Shown one piece after another: positions 4,907 to 15,111 of a stretch of 15,119 nucleotides of DNA. The stretch lies in the NCBI GenBank assembly GCA_002418885.1, contig DIEZ01000077.1, positions 1-15,119 on the forward strand, given 5' to 3'. How positions within the stretch are numbered: the first letter of the stretch is position 1; every line of letters starts with the position of its first letter. A program made the position numbers and the translations under genes. Source of the DNA: Syntrophaceae bacterium UBA5761. Lineage in GTDB: Bacteria; Desulfobacterota; Syntrophia; Syntrophales; UBA4778. The notes under the pieces are model-generated. The model had not been told where the DNA came from. It did not search any database and saw only the letters and a list, made by a program, of their open reading frames with translations.

Positions 4907-5112
4907 GCGCTCCTTCGAATAAATTTGCGCTTTATTTTGTTATTTTCGGATTATTGCTTGTCTCCCTCTTTTTCCTCACCTCTAAGCCTTTCGGCATAAC
5001 GAACGTCGTCTTCGGCGTTTGTCCTATCTTCTTGCTCGTTGTCTTTGCCGTCACAATCTGGCGCGCAGAAAGGAAACAGAAGAAATCAGTCCGTGAAGAG
5101 GCCGACCGATGA
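4903..5112 (+). CDS. Small two-helix membrane protein of unknown function
   Basis: I do not recognise this 69-residue protein. It has two hydrophobic stretches, about 8-27 and 33-53, joined by a short loop (TSKPFGITN) and followed by a strongly basic tail (RAERKQKK). The positive-inside rule predicts that both ends face the cytoplasm. One cysteine (Cys40) lies in the second helix. The start overlaps the thiC stop (ATGA) and the stop overlaps the start of the next gene (ATGA), so it is translationally coupled on both sides and bridges the thiamine and Hdr gene groups. A role as a membrane anchor or docking partner for the Hdr-like complex is possible but only inferred from position. The exact double overlap argues that it is a real gene. 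Confidence 0.75.
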   Translation: MSAPSNKFALYFVIFGLLLVSLFFLTSKPFGITNVVFGVCPIFLLVVFAVTIWRAERKQKKSVREEADR

Positions 5113-5717
5113 GGGAACGCGACGCCGACCGTGTCGATAACCTTGACAGGCTGGTGGACCGCTACCACCTTGTCGAAAACCTCGAAAGCTGCCTCCAATG
5201 CGGCAGATGTACAGGGGTATGTCCGGTAGCAAACCTTTCACCATCATACAACCCCCGACAGATAATCCGAGACATCCTGGCAGGGAATAAAGACCGGTGG
5301 CTGAGGAGCGAGGAAATCTGGCGCTGTTTCTGGTGTGCCAACTGCTATACCCTCTGTCCGATGGACATCCCCTTCCCTCTCCTCATGATGCAGCTCAGGT
5401 ACGAGGCGCTGGAAAACCGGTACGGTGAGAAGTACTTCCTGCCCTTCCGGCGTTTCGCCATGAGGGCCCTCGAGGACGGTCTGACCTTCACCCCCGGAGG
5501 CGCCAGGGGCCGTGAACGAATCATGAAACTGAGAGGTCGCATCGGTCTCAAGCCGTGGCCCGACATCTCGGAAAAGGCAAAGCAGGAATACCGCGAACTC
5601 TTCGAGGCGACGGGAGCTGCGGCGTGGATGGAAGCCATAAAGGAGGAAGAAGAGAGACCGGTTGCCCTAACCTACCTACAAGGCCGAATCACGGATGCAA
5701 AGAAAAAGGGTGGTTGA
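5109..5717 (+). CDS. hdrC1: Heterodisulfide reductase subunit C-like iron-sulfur protein (copy 1)
   Basis: The protein (202 aa) carries two classical [4Fe-4S] motifs: Cys28-x2-Cys31-x2-Cys34-x3-Cys38-Pro and Cys73-x2-Cys76-x2-Cys79-x3-Cys83-Pro. Their spacing and the flanks (ESCLQCGRCTGVCPVA, WRCFWCANC) match HdrC, the soluble electron-transfer subunit that passes electrons between HdrA and HdrB. The roughly 115-residue tail after the second cluster is basic and shows no further domain. The gene starts within the stop of the small membrane protein and overlaps hdrB1 by 23 bases, so C1 and B1 are probably made in fixed proportion. No membrane segment is visible, unlike HdrE or DsrM. The number 1 denotes position in this cluster only. 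Confidence 0.85.
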   Translation: MRERDADRVDNLDRLVDRYHLVENLESCLQCGRCTGVCPVANLSPSYNPRQIIRDILAGNKDRWLRSEEIWRCFWCANCYTLCPMDIPFPLLMMQLRYEALENRYGEKYFLPFRRFAMRALEDGLTFTPGGARGRERIMKLRGRIGLKPWPDISEKAKQEYRELFEATGAAAWMEAIKEEEERPVALTYLQGRITDAKKKGG

Positions 5718-6633
5718 ACCCGAAGATAAAATACGGGAAATCCCCGCTGTGGTTTTTCTGTTCCGGAGCTGTACGGGTAGCCTCGAATACCCGGGGACGG
5801 AAAGCGCCGTCACGGAAACACTGAGATGCCTGGAGGTCGAGCCGGTCACGGACCCGGACCAGACATGCTGCTCCGGGTACCTGCTCACCTGCTCCGCCCA
5901 CACGCCTGAAGTTTCCCTGGCAGTCACGGCCCGGAACCTCGCCCTCGTCGAGAGAAAAGGCCTAGACACCTATGTATTTTGCAACGGCTGTTACGGTTAT
6001 CTGAAAGAGCTCTCCCACATCCTGCTTCATAACCAAGAGTACCTTGAAGGGGCGAACGAATTGATCGCCCGGTGGGGATACCATTACGCCGGAAAGACAC
6101 GTATTTTTCACGTCCAGGAAATGTGGTACCGCTTGAGGGAGAGGATAGCCGCAAAAGTGGTTCGTCCCCTGAACGGTCTTCGGGTAGGAGTCCATTACGG
6201 ATGCCATTATCTGGCGCGAAAATACGACATCCTGGACGACGGTGGATACCCCACTTTCCACGAGGAAATCGTCGAAGCACTCGGCGGAACCCCCGTATTC
6301 TATAAAGAAAGGCAGCTATGCTGCGGATACGCAGTGGGCAGGGGCTTCACGCACCGAGAGGAGATCGTCCAACCCCATCTATTCAAAAAACTCAAGAACG
6401 CACGTGACTCCGGGGTGGAATTGATCACGACCGTCTGCCCGGGCTGTAACGTGGCCCTCGACAGGGAGCAGCCGAACCTGCGTGAGCGTTACGGAGAAGA
6501 CTTCCGGATTCCGGTAATCGACCTCGCCCAGCTCATCGCCCTGGCGCTAGGCGTCCCGACGGCAAAGCTCGGGTTCGAGGCAAACACGGTCCCTCTCGAT
6601 GACGTCCTGGCGAAAGTCGGTGTCTCCGAATGA
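5695..6633 (+). CDS. hdrB1: Heterodisulfide reductase subunit B-like protein with two CCG domains (copy 1)
   Basis: HdrB proteins hold non-cubane iron-sulfur clusters in cysteine-rich CCG domains and carry out disulfide chemistry. This 312-residue protein has two complete CCG motifs. The first is Cys26-x31-Cys58-Cys59-x36-Cys96-x2-Cys99; the second is Cys170-x38-Cys209-Cys210-x37-Cys248-x2-Cys251. Both sets of five cysteines are intact. The region between (about 105-160) is longer than in HdrB2. The substrate is unknown: in methanogens it is CoM-S-S-CoB, while bacterial relatives act on other thiols or on sulfur carried on a lipoate protein. The gene lies inside the end of hdrC1, and hdrA follows after 13 bases. 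Confidence 0.85.
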   Translation: MQRKRVVEPEDKIREIPAVVFLFRSCTGSLEYPGTESAVTETLRCLEVEPVTDPDQTCCSGYLLTCSAHTPEVSLAVTARNLALVERKGLDTYVFCNGCYGYLKELSHILLHNQEYLEGANELIARWGYHYAGKTRIFHVQEMWYRLRERIAAKVVRPLNGLRVGVHYGCHYLARKYDILDDGGYPTFHEEIVEALGGTPVFYKERQLCCGYAVGRGFTHREEIVQPHLFKKLKNARDSGVELITTVCPGCNVALDREQPNLRERYGEDFRIPVIDLAQLIALALGVPTAKLGFEANTVPLDDVLAKVGVSE

Positions 6634-6646
6634 AGGCGATGGAAAA

Positions 6647-7693
6647 ATGAACGAATCTATGATGGGAAAAGAGCTTACGGCGCTGGTAATCGGCGGGGGG
6701 CCTGCCGGCATCGAGGCGGCTTTGAAAATCGCCTGCGGCGGCTACCGCGTCGTCCTTGTCGAGAAAGAAAGCGAACCGGGCGGGCTGCTGCGAAAGCTCT
6801 ACAGCAGCTTCCCTCGCTGGGAAAACCCCTCCGACAGGATCGGCTGGATGGTAGATGATCTCAAAAGAAACAAGCAGATAGAGATTTCCCTGGAATCAAC
6901 CGTCGAGTCTGTCGCGCGCACTGACAATGGATTCAACGTAACCCTGAAGAACACTGCGACCGGTGGCGCCCGGACAATCGACGTCCAGGCCGTCGTCCTG
7001 GCGACGGGGTTCGGACTGATGGACCTCTCGGCCTACGGAGAATACGGCCACGGGATATACCCGGGTGTCTTGAACTCGCTGGAGTTCGAAGAAAGACTCC
7101 GTGAATGGAGCCGCGGCCTGGGAAAGGCCCCGAAGGCCGTTGCCCTCATTCAGTGCGTCGGGTCCCGCGACCGGTCCAAGGGTTATCCTTACTGCTCCAA
7201 GGTCTGCTGCATGTACTCGGCCAAGCAGGCAGGTGTCGTAAAAGACCTCTTCCCCGAGGCGAAGGTCTATGTCTTTTACATAGACTGCCGCGCCGCCGGG
7301 AAGGGGTACGAAGAATTCCTCCGTGAGGTCATCGAGAAAAAACACGTCCGTTACGTCCGGGGACGTCCGGCCAAGGTTCTGCCCGACGGCGGCAGACTCC
7401 TCGTCAGGGCCGAGGATACACTGATAGGCATCCCCGTTGAGTTCACCGCCGATGTCGTCGTCCTTGCCGCTGCGGTCGTGCCCCACCCGGAGACGGCGGC
7501 CCTTGCAAAGATGTTCGGCGCCCCTGTCGACGAATACGGTTTCATCGACCACGACCTGCGTTCTCATGCAAAATGCGCGGACCGGGTCTTCTTCGCCGGC
7601 GGCTGTGGGTTTGCCGTGGACACCGAAAGCGCCCTTAGCCAAGGCGCCGCGGCCGCCGCCGAGGTGATCGCCCTTTTCAATGGTAACGGATAG
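6647..7693 (+). CDS. hdrA: Short HdrA-like FAD and iron-sulfur protein
   Basis: HdrA is the flavin subunit of heterodisulfide-reductase-type complexes. The protein (348 aa) begins with a dinucleotide-binding motif VIGGGPAGIEAA (14-25), has an ATG motif near 119-121, and carries the HdrA signature around Cys170 (CVGSRDRSKGYPYC) and VCCMYSAKQAG (187-196), followed by a C-terminal FAD-closing segment FFAGGCG. It lacks the extra ferredoxin domains of methanogen HdrA and has no attached MvhD or GltD-like module. Its size resembles HdrA of sHdr systems as I remember them. No bifurcation partner (MvhD, FloxABCD, FrhB) is encoded in the window. The start at 6647 is preferred: an in-frame upstream codon at 6599 would run into hdrB1, while GAAGG lies about 10 bases upstream of the ATG. 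A further ATG at 6659 is possible. Confidence 0.85.
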   Translation: MNESMMGKELTALVIGGGPAGIEAALKIACGGYRVVLVEKESEPGGLLRKLYSSFPRWENPSDRIGWMVDDLKRNKQIEISLESTVESVARTDNGFNVTLKNTATGGARTIDVQAVVLATGFGLMDLSAYGEYGHGIYPGVLNSLEFEERLREWSRGLGKAPKAVALIQCVGSRDRSKGYPYCSKVCCMYSAKQAGVVKDLFPEAKVYVFYIDCRAAGKGYEEFLREVIEKKHVRYVRGRPAKVLPDGGRLLVRAEDTLIGIPVEFTADVVVLAAAVVPHPETAALAKMFGAPVDEYGFIDHDLRSHAKCADRVFFAGGCGFAVDTESALSQGAAAAAEVIALFNGNG

Positions 7694-7731
7694 TCAAACC
7701 TTTGGACGTCGATGATTTAGGAAAGCAAGGT

Positions 7732-8313
7732 ATGGACACCGATTTTTACACCCCCATGCGGCTCGACGAGGTAGAAAGCCCGCTCCAGGACGAGGTCGAG
7801 AAGGCGCTCGGCATCGATATCGAGACCTGCATGGAGTGCGGCAAATGCTCGGGCGGCTGTTCCAACGCCCACATCTTCGATTTCACGCCGCGCAAGGTCG
7901 TCCAACTCATCCGGCTCGGCGCGGAAGAAACCCTTCTTACCATGGATGCACTCTGGGTCTGTCTGTCCTGTCAGCTCTGCGTCGACCGCTGCCCCTCCGG
8001 CATCGACATCCCGCGGATCATGGATTACCTGCGGGAGAAGGCGCTCCGGGAAGGTTACCGGCCTTCCCGTCCCGCGGTGGTGCTTTTCTACGAGCTGATG
8101 TGCTCTTGTGTCGAAAGGAGGGGCCGCGTTTCGGAGGCACCTCTGATGCTCAGGTTCAACGTCCTGACCGGACAGTACCTGAAGGACCTGACGCTGGGTA
8201 TACGGATGTTCCTCAAGGGCAAGCTACCCCTCACGGCGGGGAAGGTGAAGAAGATGGATGAAGTAAGAACGCTTTTTGTTTCGTGGCATAGAAGGAGCGT
8301 AAAACGGGGATGA
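7732..8313 (+). CDS. hdrC2: Heterodisulfide reductase subunit C-like iron-sulfur protein (copy 2)
   Basis: The 193-residue protein has two [4Fe-4S] motifs, Cys33-x2-Cys36-x2-Cys39-x3-Cys43 and Cys77-x2-Cys80-x2-Cys83-x3-Cys87-Pro. In the first, the proline normally after the fourth cysteine is replaced by Ser (SGGCSNA); this is common in HdrC. The tail (about 110-193) is richer in hydrophobic residues than that of HdrC1 and holds two extra cysteines (Cys124, Cys126). The ATG at 7732 with AGGA at 7719-7722 is preferred to an in-frame TTG at 7702 that lacks a ribosome site. The gene is 38 bases behind hdrA with no terminator visible between, and its stop overlaps the hdrB2 start as ATGA. The two C/B pairs differ clearly in sequence, so they are not a recent tandem duplication. 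Confidence 0.85.
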   Translation: MDTDFYTPMRLDEVESPLQDEVEKALGIDIETCMECGKCSGGCSNAHIFDFTPRKVVQLIRLGAEETLLTMDALWVCLSCQLCVDRCPSGIDIPRIMDYLREKALREGYRPSRPAVVLFYELMCSCVERRGRVSEAPLMLRFNVLTGQYLKDLTLGIRMFLKGKLPLTAGKVKKMDEVRTLFVSWHRRSVKRG

Positions 8314-9137
8314 TTGTCGCGTACTACCCGGGATGTTCCCTCGAAGGCGTGGCCCGCGAATACGACCGCTCGGCCCGCCTCGTCTGCGAACGCCTCGGCT
8401 TCGGTCTCCAGGAGGTCCCGGACTGGAACTGCTGCGGCGCCACGGCCGCCCACAGCCTCGACCACGAACTGACGCGGGGTTTGAGTGCCAGGAATCTCGC
8501 CACCGTCGGCAGGATGAACCTCGCCACGGTGACCACGCCCTGCCCCGGCTGTTCCATCCGGTTGAAAGGTGCGGCCATGGAAGCGAAAAAAGAAGGCGGC
8601 GCGCCGGAAGTGATGCACCTTCTTCAACTTTTGACCGAAGCCGCCGGCACGGAGAAAATCGCTTCGTCCGTTATTAAGCCGCTCGGAGGCCTCCGCCTTG
8701 CGGCCTATTACGGGTGCCTCGTCACGCGCCCCAGGGCGGTGGCACGGTTCGACGACCCAGAACAACCCCGCTCCATGGACCGTCTCCTTCAGGCCCTTGG
8801 CGCCGAAACGGTTGATTGGTCACACAAGGCCGAATGCTGCGGCGGAGCCTTTGCCGCCTCAGAAACGAGTATCGTCGTCGACCTCGGAGGCCAGGTCCTC
8901 GAAGCGGCACACCAGGCCGGTGCCGAGGCCCTGGCCGTTGCCTGTCCCATGTGTCAGGTCAACATAGACACCCGGCAACGGGAGGTCGAATCAACCCGTG
9001 GCGTAAGGTATGATTTGCCCGTCTTCTATTTCACCCAATTGATGGGCCTTGCCTACGGGTTCACCCATAGAGCCATGGGCCTAAAGCGCCTGCTCGTCAA
9101 TCCCTTACCTCTCCTGAAGAGGAAAGGGATTCTCTGA
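8310..9137 (+). CDS. hdrB2: Heterodisulfide reductase subunit B-like protein with two CCG domains (copy 2)
   Basis: The 275-residue protein starts with the classic HdrB opening MIVAYYPGCSL. It has two complete CCG motifs: Cys9-x31-Cys41-Cys42-x35-Cys78-x2-Cys81 and Cys136-x39-Cys176-Cys177-x34-Cys212-x2-Cys215. It is closer to standard HdrB than HdrB1 is, with DWNCCGATAAH and AECCGGAF in the expected places. It overlaps the end of hdrC2 by four bases (ATGA), with GAAGGAGC (8291-8298) as its ribosome site. It closes the Hdr cluster; its last codons contain a long stem-loop and its stop lies 5 bases from the stop of the opposing gene. Substrate and electron partners are not shown by the sequence. 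Confidence 0.88.
   Translation: MIVAYYPGCSLEGVAREYDRSARLVCERLGFGLQEVPDWNCCGATAAHSLDHELTRGLSARNLATVGRMNLATVTTPCPGCSIRLKGAAMEAKKEGGAPEVMHLLQLLTEAAGTEKIASSVIKPLGGLRLAAYYGCLVTRPRAVARFDDPEQPRSMDRLLQALGAETVDWSHKAECCGGAFAASETSIVVDLGGQVLEAAHQAGAEALAVACPMCQVNIDTRQREVESTRGVRYDLPVFYFTQLMGLAYGFTHRAMGLKRLLVNPLPLLKRKGIL
9099..9131. terminator. Candidate two-way stem-loop at the convergent gene junction
   Basis: Bases 9099-9112 pair with 9118-9131 with one A-A mismatch (9107/9123) around a 5-base loop, giving 13 pairs. The stem lies inside the last codons of hdrB2 and just beyond the stop of the minus-strand UPF0182 gene. No T-run follows on either strand, so it is not a canonical intrinsic terminator. It could slow polymerase or protect both 3' ends. 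With no intergenic room, it is the only visible candidate to end either transcript. Confidence 0.35.
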
Positions 9138-12929: not shown

Positions 12930-13193
12930 ATGAAAGCCTTCAGAATGAACAAGTACATTGTTTGCGCCGAATTCCTGGAAGAGGCGCAGGAATTCTTTGT
13001 CCACGAGATAGGAGAGACTCTTCCCTCGAACATCGAGGAGCTGTCGTGGGATTGCGATATCTGCAGTGTAAGCGGAGAGACCAGCACCTTACGGGACATC
13101 ATAAATGAGGTGATGGACGAGCGCAGTGCCTGGCTGCGCATGGGCATCCCCTGCGACCTCCTTTGGCCTTTCATCGCTGCAAAGACCGAATGA
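12930..13193 (+). CDS. Conserved-looking small acidic protein of unknown function
   Basis: I do not recognise this 87-residue protein. It has no signal peptide or membrane segment, so it is probably cytoplasmic. It is acidic in its first two thirds (many Glu and Asp) and contains a CDIC pair (Cys42, Cys45) plus Cys12 and Cys75; four cysteines in so small a protein could bind a metal, but no known pattern is complete. A hydrophobic segment near the end (IPCDLLWPFIAA) is too short to span a membrane. The ribosome site AGGAG (12919-12923) overlaps the NlpC/P60 stop codon and lies six bases before the ATG, which supports a real, cotranscribed gene. A T7 run follows the stop without a convincing stem. 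Confidence 0.65.
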   Translation: MKAFRMNKYIVCAEFLEEAQEFFVHEIGETLPSNIEELSWDCDICSVSGETSTLRDIINEVMDERSAWLRMGIPCDLLWPFIAAKTE

Positions 13194-13203
13194 TGTTTTT
13201 TTA

Positions 13204-13232
13204 TTGACAAAAGAAATTACAGGTTTTATAGT
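13204..13232 (+). promoter_or_regulatory. Strong sigma70-type promoter of the cimA leader
   Basis: TTGACA (13204-13209, perfect) and TATAGT (13227-13232, five of six) are separated by the ideal 17 bases. This is the best promoter match in the window. Transcription should start near 13239, about 27 bases before the leader-peptide start and about 125 bases before the attenuator terminator. It shows that the leader and cimA are transcribed independently of the upstream genes. Confidence 0.8.
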
Positions 13233-13265
13233 GCGTTCCACTTTAGAAATTGAGGCGCGTGAGCT

Positions 13266-13340
13266 GTGTTGAGAGACATCGCCATCATCATTATCGGCAT
13301 CATAATTCAGGGTGCCCATCTAGACCTGATGATGGACTGA
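13266..13340 (+). CDS. Isoleucine-rich attenuation leader peptide of cimA
   Basis: A 24-codon reading frame starts at GTG 13266 (or TTG 13269) and reads MLRD, then IAIIIIGIII, then QGAHLDLMMD, ending at TGA 13338-13340. Eight of the ten codons from 13278 to 13307 are isoleucine: five ATC, two ATT and the often rare ATA. The frame is closed upstream by a stop at 13260-13262. A weak GAGG (13252-13255) lies ten bases before the GTG. The position, just after a strong promoter and before a strong terminator upstream of an isoleucine-pathway gene, fits a leader whose translation senses charged tRNA-Ile. The peptide itself probably has no function. Which start codon is used cannot be decided from sequence. 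Confidence 0.8.
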   Translation: MLRDIAIIIIGIIIQGAHLDLMMD

Positions 13341-13377
13341 TGTGATCACAAGAGAGACTTCAAAATCCGTTATCAGG
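13282..13377 (+). promoter_or_regulatory. Alternative pairings of the Ile attenuator (protector 1:2 and antiterminator 2:3)
   Basis: Segment 1 (13282-13290), inside the isoleucine codons, pairs perfectly over nine bases with 13327-13335. The same segment 2 (13325-13336) can instead pair over twelve bases, including two G-U pairs, with segment 3 (13366-13377), which is most of the terminator's 5' arm. A ribosome stalled on isoleucine codons would mask segment 1 and free segment 2, so that 2:3 forms and polymerase reads through. A ribosome reaching the stop at 13338 would cover segment 2 and allow termination. Without translation, 1:2 forms and termination follows. The pairings are seen in the sequence; the mechanism is inferred from the classical his/ilv/trp model. 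Confidence 0.75.
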
Positions 13378-13399
13378 GCGACTGATAACGGATTTTTTT
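13362..13399 (+). terminator. Attenuator terminator upstream of cimA
   Basis: A perfect 15-bp stem (13362-13376 with 13382-13396) has a five-base loop (GGCGA), and its distal end runs into a seven-T tract (13393-13399). It is the strongest intrinsic terminator in the window. It stands between a strong promoter and cimA, not behind the upstream gene alone, so it must act as a conditional stop for cimA. Confidence 0.93.
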
Positions 13400-13491
13400 A
13401 TTGCGGCAGATTGATTAAGGCGTGTCTGGACAGGATACCTCAGCCTCCGGGGACGCCCGATCGTCCAGAACTCAAAGCTAAGAGGTCCATC

Positions 13492-15111
13492 ATGAGAAAA
13501 AAGTACGATGTCTTGGTTTATGACACCACATTGAGGGACGGGGCACAGGGAGAGCAGATCAGCTTCTCCGCAGAAGAAAAGATTCGTATCGCGAGGCGGT
13601 TGGATGAATTCGGCATCCATTATATCGAAGGAGGCTGGCCCGGTTCCAACCCCAAGGATGTACGGTTCTTCGAGATGGCTCGGCAGGTCGAATTCAAGAA
13701 CGCCCGTCTGGCGGCCTTCGGAAGCACAAGACGGGCGCATACGGCAGCCGGTGAGTGCCCTAATGTCCAGGGCCTGATCGAAGCCGAAACGCCCACCGTT
13801 ACCATCTTCGGCAAGAGCTGGGACCTTCACGTAAAGGAAGTACTGAGAGTCTCGCTCAAAGAGAACCTTGCAATGATCCGCGAGACCGTCGAATTCCTAA
13901 AATCCAGGGGTAAAGAAGTCATATACGACGCCGAGCACTTTTTCGACGGTTACAGGCACAACAGAAAATACGCCCTTCAGACGCTCCAGGCCGCGCTCGA
14001 CGGGGGCGCAGATGCGATCGTACTTTGCGATACCAATGGCGGGACACTGCCGTCCGACGTTTCCACGGCAGTCAGCGACGTCGCTCGGGTCGTCTCACCT
14101 GACCGTTTGGGAATCCATGCCCATAATGACGGCGGACTCGCCGTGGCCAACTCGATCGCCGCCGTCGAAGAGGGCGTTAAGATGGTCCAGGGGACCATCA
14201 ACGGATACGGCGAGCGTTGCGGTAACGCCGACCTCATCCCGATCATCGCCAACCTCCAGCTCAAGATGAACAGGCGGTGCATCCCGGAAGAATCCATGAA
14301 ACAACTGACGCATCTCTCTCTGTATGTGAGCGAGATCGCCAACATCCCACCGCTCAATTCCAGGCCCTTCGTCGGAAGAAGCGCCTTCGCCCACAAAGGG
14401 GGTATCCATGTCCACGCGGTACTGAAAAATCCGCTTGCCTACGAGCATATCGAGCCCGAACGGGTCGGAAACCAACGGCGCGTCTTGGTCTCCGATTATT
14501 CGGGGAAGAGCAGCATCGAATACAAGGCTAAGGAGCTCGGGCTTTCTCTTGATGAGAGCGACGCAAAAAGCAGGAAGGTCGTAGAAAAACTCAAGGCCCT
14601 CGAACACGAAGGCTATACCTTCGAGGCCGCCGACGGGTCTCTTTCACTTCTGATCAAGAAGACGACCGGTGAATTCGAGGCGCCCTTCGCCCTGGAGTGC
14701 TATCGCGCCACCGACGAGAAGACGGAAGATGCGCCGTCAGTCTCCCGGGCGTTGATCAAGATATCGGTAGGGAATGAAGAGGAGATCACGGCCGCCGAGG
14801 GTAACGGCCCCATAAATGCCTTGGACAATGCCCTGCGTAAGGCCTTGACGAAGTTCTACCCTCATTTGAGTGAAATGCACCTGACGGACTTCAAGGTCAA
14901 TATCATTGAAGGGAGCGAGGGTACGGCCTCCAAGGTGCGGGTTTTCATCGAGTCCAGAGACGAGGAAGATGTCTGGAGCACGATCGGCGTTTCCGAAAGC
15001 GTCATCGAGGCGAGCTGGCTTGCCCTCGTCGACAGTATCGAGTACAAACTGAGCAAAAAAACGGTTCCCAATCTTAAGTTCAAAGTTGAAAAAGTGGTGA
15101 AAAGAAATTAA
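13492..15111 (+). CDS. cimA: (R)-citramalate synthase
   Basis: The enzyme condenses pyruvate with acetyl-CoA to citramalate, which leads to 2-oxobutyrate and isoleucine without threonine. The 539-residue protein fits the LeuA-related TIGR00977 group. The N-terminal TIM barrel shows DTTLRDG (11-17), EGGWPGSNPKD (46-56), metal ligands in HAHND (209-213), NGYGERCGNAD (237-247) and HKGGIHVHAV (301-310). The C-terminal part (about 410-539) resembles the LeuA regulatory domain and probably binds isoleucine for feedback. Homologues in this group have sometimes been annotated as 2-isopropylmalate synthase. The ATG at 13492 has AGAGG (13481-13485) and gives the usual MxKKYDVxVYDTTLRDG start; an in-frame GTG at 13342 would add 50 residues translated from the attenuator terminator and is wrong. 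AAGAGGA right after the stop may be the ribosome site of another gene beyond the window. Confidence 0.92.
   Translation: MRKKYDVLVYDTTLRDGAQGEQISFSAEEKIRIARRLDEFGIHYIEGGWPGSNPKDVRFFEMARQVEFKNARLAAFGSTRRAHTAAGECPNVQGLIEAETPTVTIFGKSWDLHVKEVLRVSLKENLAMIRETVEFLKSRGKEVIYDAEHFFDGYRHNRKYALQTLQAALDGGADAIVLCDTNGGTLPSDVSTAVSDVARVVSPDRLGIHAHNDGGLAVANSIAAVEEGVKMVQGTINGYGERCGNADLIPIIANLQLKMNRRCIPEESMKQLTHLSLYVSEIANIPPLNSRPFVGRSAFAHKGGIHVHAVLKNPLAYEHIEPERVGNQRRVLVSDYSGKSSIEYKAKELGLSLDESDAKSRKVVEKLKALEHEGYTFEAADGSLSLLIKKTTGEFEAPFALECYRATDEKTEDAPSVSRALIKISVGNEEEITAAEGNGPINALDNALRKALTKFYPHLSEMHLTDFKVNIIEGSEGTASKVRVFIESRDEEDVWSTIGVSESVIEASWLALVDSIEYKLSKKTVPNLKFKVEKVVKRN

Follow-up and report, generated by a model that had tools for sequence, protein, structure and literature searches.

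The region upstream of cimA in the window, that is, in the whole 15,119-nucleotide stretch of DNA that was analysed, is with high probability a ribosome-mediated transcription attenuator of the operon cimA-leuC-leuD-leuB. Its parts, their conservation among relatives and the covariation of two mutually exclusive helices are observed directly, and the leader and the stop signal behind it very probably let these bacteria turn on the isoleucine route only when isoleucine is short. CimA catalyses the first step of the citramalate route, in which the products of leuCDB carry out the steps from citramalate to 2-oxobutanoate, the precursor of isoleucine. In the window cimA is followed by leuC, leuD and leuB, of which leuD was assigned by reading and leuC is interrupted by masked bases. 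No ilvA over the cut-off was found in the 89%-complete genome of the window (TIGR01127 stays below it, and TIGR02079 has no match), so that this organism probably enters the isoleucine route mainly through cimA.

The cimA leader in the window and in its order

The features of the locus are collected in Table 1. A near-perfect promoter, a 24-codon frame rich in isoleucine, a perfect terminator stem with its run of U and a citramalate synthase gene downstream had all been claimed in a preliminary description of this DNA, and each of them was confirmed. The leader peptide reads VLRDIAIIIIGIIIQGAHLDLMMD; by eye, its GTG start lines up with the ATG that opens the leader of a relative, G034 (MKRDTATIII...), and no obvious strong Shine-Dalgarno sequence is seen by eye before it. 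The distance to cimA is 151 nt from the leader stop codon and 92 nt from the terminator.

Table 1. Features of the cimA leader region, in window coordinates.
Feature	Position	Strand	Basis
Sigma-70-type promoter, TTGACA-17-TATAGT	13204..13232	+	Agrees with the consensus at 11 of 12 positions
Leader peptide ORF, 24 codons, GTG start at 13266, TGA stop	13266..13340	+	Predicted; Ile-rich frame kept in relatives
Regulatory Ile codons, 8 of 10	13278..13307	+	Codon count
Region 1 (Ile codons able to pair with region 2)	13281..13291	+	-14.1 kcal/mol
Region 2 (final leader codons; 5' half of the antiterminator)	13325..13337	+	Covaries with region 3
Region 3 (within the 5' arm of the terminator; 3' half of the antiterminator)	13366..13377	+	Covariation, folding
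Intrinsic terminator, perfect 15-bp stem 13362-13396, T7 13393-13399	13362..13399	+	Scan, covariation
cimA, citramalate synthase, ATG at 13492	13492..15111	+	TIGR00977, 755 bits (cut-off 450)

Across the six frames of the window, the leader contains the single stretch of ten codons with eight for isoleucine, and the best count per ten codons in 40 dinucleotide shuffles of the window was three to five. The fold of positions 13239-13402, terminator included, has a z-score of -3.8 and is better than those of all 200 shuffles. A single-site scan found one terminator where 0.7 were expected, so that such a structure is not rare, and the weight of the terminator comes from its strength and conservation. 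Elsewhere in the window, a small ORF of 87 amino acids (12930-13193) without NCBIfam match lies ahead of the promoter, a TPP riboswitch (1281-1370; RF00059, 64.9 bits), the sole Rfam match in the window, precedes a hydroxymethylpyrimidine kinase gene (about 1428-2774), and a run of genes at 5109-9137 resembles, by eye, heterodisulfide-reductase-type subunits and a flavoprotein.

Citramalate synthase genes were searched for at E up to 1e-80 in 149 genomes, comprising that of the window and its relatives, and were found in 128; the cimA genomes listed belong to the order of the window and fall into at least 21 families. The upstream regions number 125, the window included, and derive from 123 genomes plus second copies in two of them (G082b and G058b), with only 1 nt available for G032; matches lacking the N-terminus (G065, G131, G109, G070 and G146), second halves in G063 and G096 and an inverted duplicate (G082:C269) were left out. 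A terminator is located upstream of cimA in 119 of the 125 regions, and in 104 of these 119 it is preceded by a frame with at least five isoleucine codons in ten whose stop codon lies 10-65 nt before it, which bears out the proposal that orthologues would share an Ile-rich frame; with a threshold of four in ten the number rises to 112. The same enrichment (at least five in ten) is reached for glycine in 5 of the 119 regions, for arginine in two and for alanine, histidine and threonine in one each, a comparison that slightly favours isoleucine because the terminator was picked by the best Ile leader. At a control place 250 nt upstream, none of 114 regions has an Ile-rich frame. Furthermore, TTGAC is found 40-230 nt before the leader stop codon in 109 of 112 leaders, compared with 8 of 106 control stretches. 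Promoter and short leader ORF, the latter predicted to be translated, are thus both present in the window and kept in its relatives.

The exceptions are of several kinds. No terminator was called in G021, where an Ile leader is present and the stem is imperfect, in G028, where the leader is deleted and an imperfect stem remains, in G032, with its single upstream nucleotide, in G097, in G145, where a terminator-like remnant lies about 290 nt upstream, beyond the distance limit used, and at G058b, a second cimA copy situated directly behind a leuB-like gene (by reading). Fewer than four isoleucine codons in ten are seen in 7 of the 119 regions: three of these (G039, G115 and G141) have less than 200 nt of upstream sequence, G103 has a terminator without leader, G014 and G100 have two isoleucine codons in ten, and G051 has three. 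The arrangement that the preliminary description had named as speaking against its reading, orthologues with a terminator and no isoleucine codons, is rare: it is seen where the leader is lost (G028 and G103) or retains two isoleucine codons in ten (G014 and G100). In G028 (L176) and G103 (L136) the leader is gone and a promoter-like sequence and the terminator remain close together; these might be natural deletions, possibly keeping cimA largely off, or assembly faults. The second cimA copy in G058 (L201, G058:C101) is more distant, with 57% identity, and stands behind the leuB-like gene without a leader. As for codon usage, 268 of the 917 isoleucine codons counted over the final 30 codons of the 112 leaders are AUA, compared with 30 of 223 over the initial 27 codons of the cimA matches, and the leaders may sample both tRNA-Ile isoacceptors.

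Exclusive helices and the predicted switch

Covariation was assessed on an alignment (A1) of 48 of 50 non-redundant leaders, G023 and G092 having been dropped by judgement because their terminator or leader looked divergent, which slightly favours the covariation counts. For the terminator helix, 92.1% of the cells are paired and 55 are double-changed (shuffles: 86.1% and 13.3); for the antiterminator helix, formed by the last codons of the leader and the 5' arm of the terminator, the figures are 90.5% and 38 (shuffles: 86.9% and 11.0). In neither case did any of 500 shuffles, uncorrected for relatedness, come up to the observed pairing, number of double-changed cells or covariation score, as would be expected of the covarying stems for which the preliminary description had proposed to look, and pairing falls to 27-51% when the partner is slid along. 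Other measures discriminate less: the observed number of further pair types was attained by 145 of 500 shuffles for the terminator and 131 of 500 for the antiterminator, and that of antiterminator pairs changed on both sides by 33 of 500 and also by a slide of +3 (6 versus 5). Pairing of a leader with its own region 3 is on average stronger than with the region 3 of other leaders (-13.1 versus -11.1 kcal/mol; 0 of 5000 permutations, uncorrected for relatedness), and for a single leader an average of 41% of the region 3 sequences of others pair equally well or better. The energy of the antiterminator lies below z = -2 in 63 of 112 leaders. In the window, this helix pairs 13325-13336 with 13366-13377, positions that covary in relatives, in many of which region 2 is placed at about -14 to 0 from the stop codon. 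RNAalifold predicts the terminator helix alone on the alignment. Since region 3 is common to both, terminator and antiterminator exclude each other.

The locus thereby shows the arrangement of an attenuator: an intrinsic terminator lies between leader ORF and cimA, an antiterminator excludes it, as indicated by the common arm, the covariation and the pairing with own versus foreign partners, and tandem codons specify the amino acid that the operon produces. Translation of the leader, stalling of the ribosome, termination and the response to isoleucine are predicted from this arrangement. When charged tRNA-Ile is ample, the ribosome would reach the leader stop codon and cover region 2, so that region 3 would pair with region 4 and RNA polymerase would stop near 13399. 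Under a shortage of charged tRNA-Ile, the ribosome would stall on the isoleucine codons and leave region 2 free to pair with region 3, the terminator would not form in time, and cimA would be transcribed.

A ribosome has a footprint of about 15 nt downstream, and coverage of about this length was assumed for folding. If the ribosome is placed on the last isoleucine codon and the polymerase has just cleared region 3, the antiterminator is the fold obtained for the window (-20.6 kcal/mol); if the ribosome stands at the stop codon and covers region 2, the terminator is obtained (-20.9 kcal/mol). Once region 4 is present, a stalled ribosome no longer keeps the terminator from being the favoured fold, so that the switch would need kinetic, co-transcriptional folding. 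In a simple geometry applied to all 112 leaders, the terminator forms in every one when the ribosome stands at the stop codon; when it stands on the last isoleucine codon, region 3 has at least seven upstream pairs in only 65.

The preliminary description had also proposed two competing pairings, of which the antiterminator stands, with its covariation, and the pairing of the isoleucine codons with region 2 is possible by energy and lacks covariation. In the window this second helix would join 13281-13291 with 13325-13335; when no ribosome is present, folding through region 3 gives the antiterminator and not this helix. A fixed-column helix between the second cluster of isoleucine codons and region 2 found no support, since it is paired in 58.7% of cells versus 59.7% in shuffles and shows no covariation. 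When 50 leaders were folded separately, at least 4 nt of region 2 were paired in 46 (mean z of -1.0), which weakly backs pairing of region 2 with upstream sequence.

Related leaders upstream of other branched-chain genes

The genome of the window contains a second copy of the element (G000:C61:5965-6086) before ilvB-ilvN-ilvC-ilvD, in which ilvN was assigned by reading. The frame of this leader, MRKIITLTIVVVAVVVDPR, holds six valine, three isoleucine and one leucine codons, so that an Ile-rich leader on cimA-leuCDB and a Val-rich leader on ilvBNCD coexist in one genome and provide a clean test pair for codon specificity.

A covariance model built from the leaders (R1), run with filters that lose weak matches, found matches in 53 of the 60 relatives searched (E up to 0.01) and in 48 of 395 genomes of the phylum (E up to 0.001), 16 of the 48 belonging to the order of the window and 347 genomes having none. 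At E below 1e-6, it marks the cimA upstream region at 12 of 80 cimA loci, which are labelled Deltaproteobacteria, Desulfobacterales, Desulfobacteria or Syntrophaceae; a match is absent at other cimA loci with such labels, for example L012, L014, L015 and L020, where cimA follows an ilvC-like gene (by reading). A search of plasmids with the leader DNA gave no match.

Seventy loci were classified, namely 30 further sense matches from the 60 relatives and 40 from outside the order among the 395 genomes, with the cimA leaders of the order, short matches and antisense matches set aside. Branched-chain genes follow at 66 of the 70, comprising 31 ilvB, 15 ilvD, 15 cimA, three leuA, one ilvA and one ilvN, the last at a locus (L248, G016) with ilvN 2.1 kb downstream and no ilvB match. 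At the other four no such gene follows, and three of these have weak E-values (7.9e-5 to 9.1e-4). The suggestion that attenuator logic had come to act at cimA is supported, except that it is not peculiar to this gene, which is one of a branched-chain set. In the last 30 residues, the ilvB leaders contain on average 6.7 Ile, 2.7 Val and 1.5 Leu, the ilvD leaders 6.7, 3.5 and 4.7, the cimA leaders outside the order 5.1, 2.5 and 7.7, and the three leuA leaders 3.3, 5.7 and 6.7; choosing the frames by their content of Ile, Leu and Val inflates the totals and affects the proportions less, and the frames chosen for L252 and the four loci without known gene are doubtful. The codon mix therefore differs with the downstream gene, and the mainly-Ile cimA leader belongs to the order of the window, with mixed cimA leaders elsewhere. 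That isoleucine is common in all leaders may be due in part to region 3, which must resemble isoleucine codons if it is to compete for region 2. One locus, L232 (G450:C70, about 1350-1640), has a frame with ten Ile and four Leu in its last 30 codons and the same kind of terminator, and the gene behind it is acyl-CoA dehydrogenase-like (best NCBIfam match acryloyl-CoA reductase, 461 bits, below the cut-off of 640).

A TIGR02079-type IlvA scores above the cut-off in one of 148 genomes, G022, in which cimA was not found by the search at E up to 1e-80 (the genome is 89% complete). Its ilvA gene is preceded by an R1 match of 68.8 bits, with a leader frame, MSNHKFHNIMVNGIIISGASPGRHPIVD, that was read by eye and has four isoleucine codons in ten, and with a terminator of the same form whose base pairs are changed. 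Five other genomes have weaker TIGR02079 matches, and no such leader was seen by eye in the stretches inspected there, of which that of L269-L271 may not be a gene start. The single case of G022 fits a switch that is tied to the isoleucine entry step and not to the enzyme. A tentative extension, which we consider less probable than not, is that one ancestral cassette was copied before cimA, ilvB, ilvD, leuA and ilvA in the Desulfobacterota, that the core of its terminator stayed recognisable as its codons were adapted to each enzyme, and that it remained with the isoleucine entry step, in place or by moving along with it, when CimA gave way to IlvA.

Alternative explanations and known systems

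An ordinary terminator, with the isoleucine frame as a by-product of constraints on RNA pairing and no translation-dependent switch, would accommodate the leaders that retain the terminator with few isoleucine codons, as well as the ability of these codons in the window to act as pairing strand for region 2. It would leave unexplained that a promoter sits between the upstream gene and the frame and is so widely kept, that isoleucine is the sole strongly enriched residue across different terminator sequences, and that the ilvB leader of the same genome has Val-rich codons with a similar terminator, all of which makes this explanation very improbable. Still less credence is given to a ligand- or tRNA-binding RNA, a riboswitch or T-box, that governs the terminator directly and without translation. 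T-boxes are described on leuA in Geobacter and Pelobacter, which are likewise deltaproteobacteria, in the available text of two reports (PMC2494555, PMC2700814), and are comparable in that a branched-chain gene of related bacteria is under RNA control; they sense tRNA charging directly, however, and the window has no T-box match. Indeed, the leader matches no Rfam family at the gathering score, amino-acid leader and T-box families included, which answers the comparison with known leader families suggested at the outset; two matches at E up to 1 are chance-like, the leader is mostly coding, and the consensus fold consists of the terminator helix alone. A leader that works mainly at another level, by ribosome reinitiation or Rho-dependent polarity, with the terminator in a minor role, is equally hard to credit: such reinitiation has been put forward for bacterial leader genes (PMC4833913, available text), but the leader stop codon lies 151 nt before cimA here, and the 15-bp stem with its T7 is strong and conserved.

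The preferred reading, classical ribosome-mediated attenuation, would thus apply to a new target gene in a new lineage, with a sequence family absent from Rfam 15. The ilv operons of enterobacteria are controlled by Ile-Val-Leu leader attenuators, with which the cimA leader has in common a short predicted peptide rich in the product, the exclusive terminator and antiterminator and the amino acid operon downstream; it differs in its target, cimA-leuCDB, in codons that within the order are mainly for isoleucine, and in its lineage, the Desulfobacterota. The amino-acid leaders for His (RF00514), Trp (RF00513), Thr (RF00506) and Leu (RF00512) in Rfam would belong to the same class of mechanism and differ in amino acid and sequence, and isoleucine/valine attenuators were absent from Rfam at the date of PMC3766115, according to its available text. 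In Actinobacteria, ilvB leader peptides are encoded by ORFs with Ile, Val and Leu codons that overlap terminators, and codon replacement in that of S. coelicolor was without effect (PMC1262725, available text); these are alike in having branched-chain codons at a terminator, but the codons are mixed and the phylum is another. The open literature searched, mostly by title and the start of the abstract, yielded no cimA leader; an earlier prediction would most likely stand in Vitreschak 2004 or Lopatovskaya 2010, which fall outside its scope. The main text of PMC2965389 contains no cimA, citramalate, Desulfo-, Syntroph- or Geobacter, and in the available text of PMC13158618, PMC12452182, PMC10411014 and PMC6561320 terms for citramalate and for attenuation or attenuator are both present and unrelated.

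It has been suggested that amino acid attenuator motifs may be of gammaproteobacterial origin, with very few transfers (PMC3766115, available text). The leaders described here suggest instead that parts of the Desulfobacterota commonly use amino acid attenuators, and they add leader peptides, an RNA family and a predicted set of regulated genes, none of which was found in the Rfam models. In many anaerobes the citramalate route replaces threonine deaminase, and with the cimA leader this route would gain a predicted transcriptional switch.
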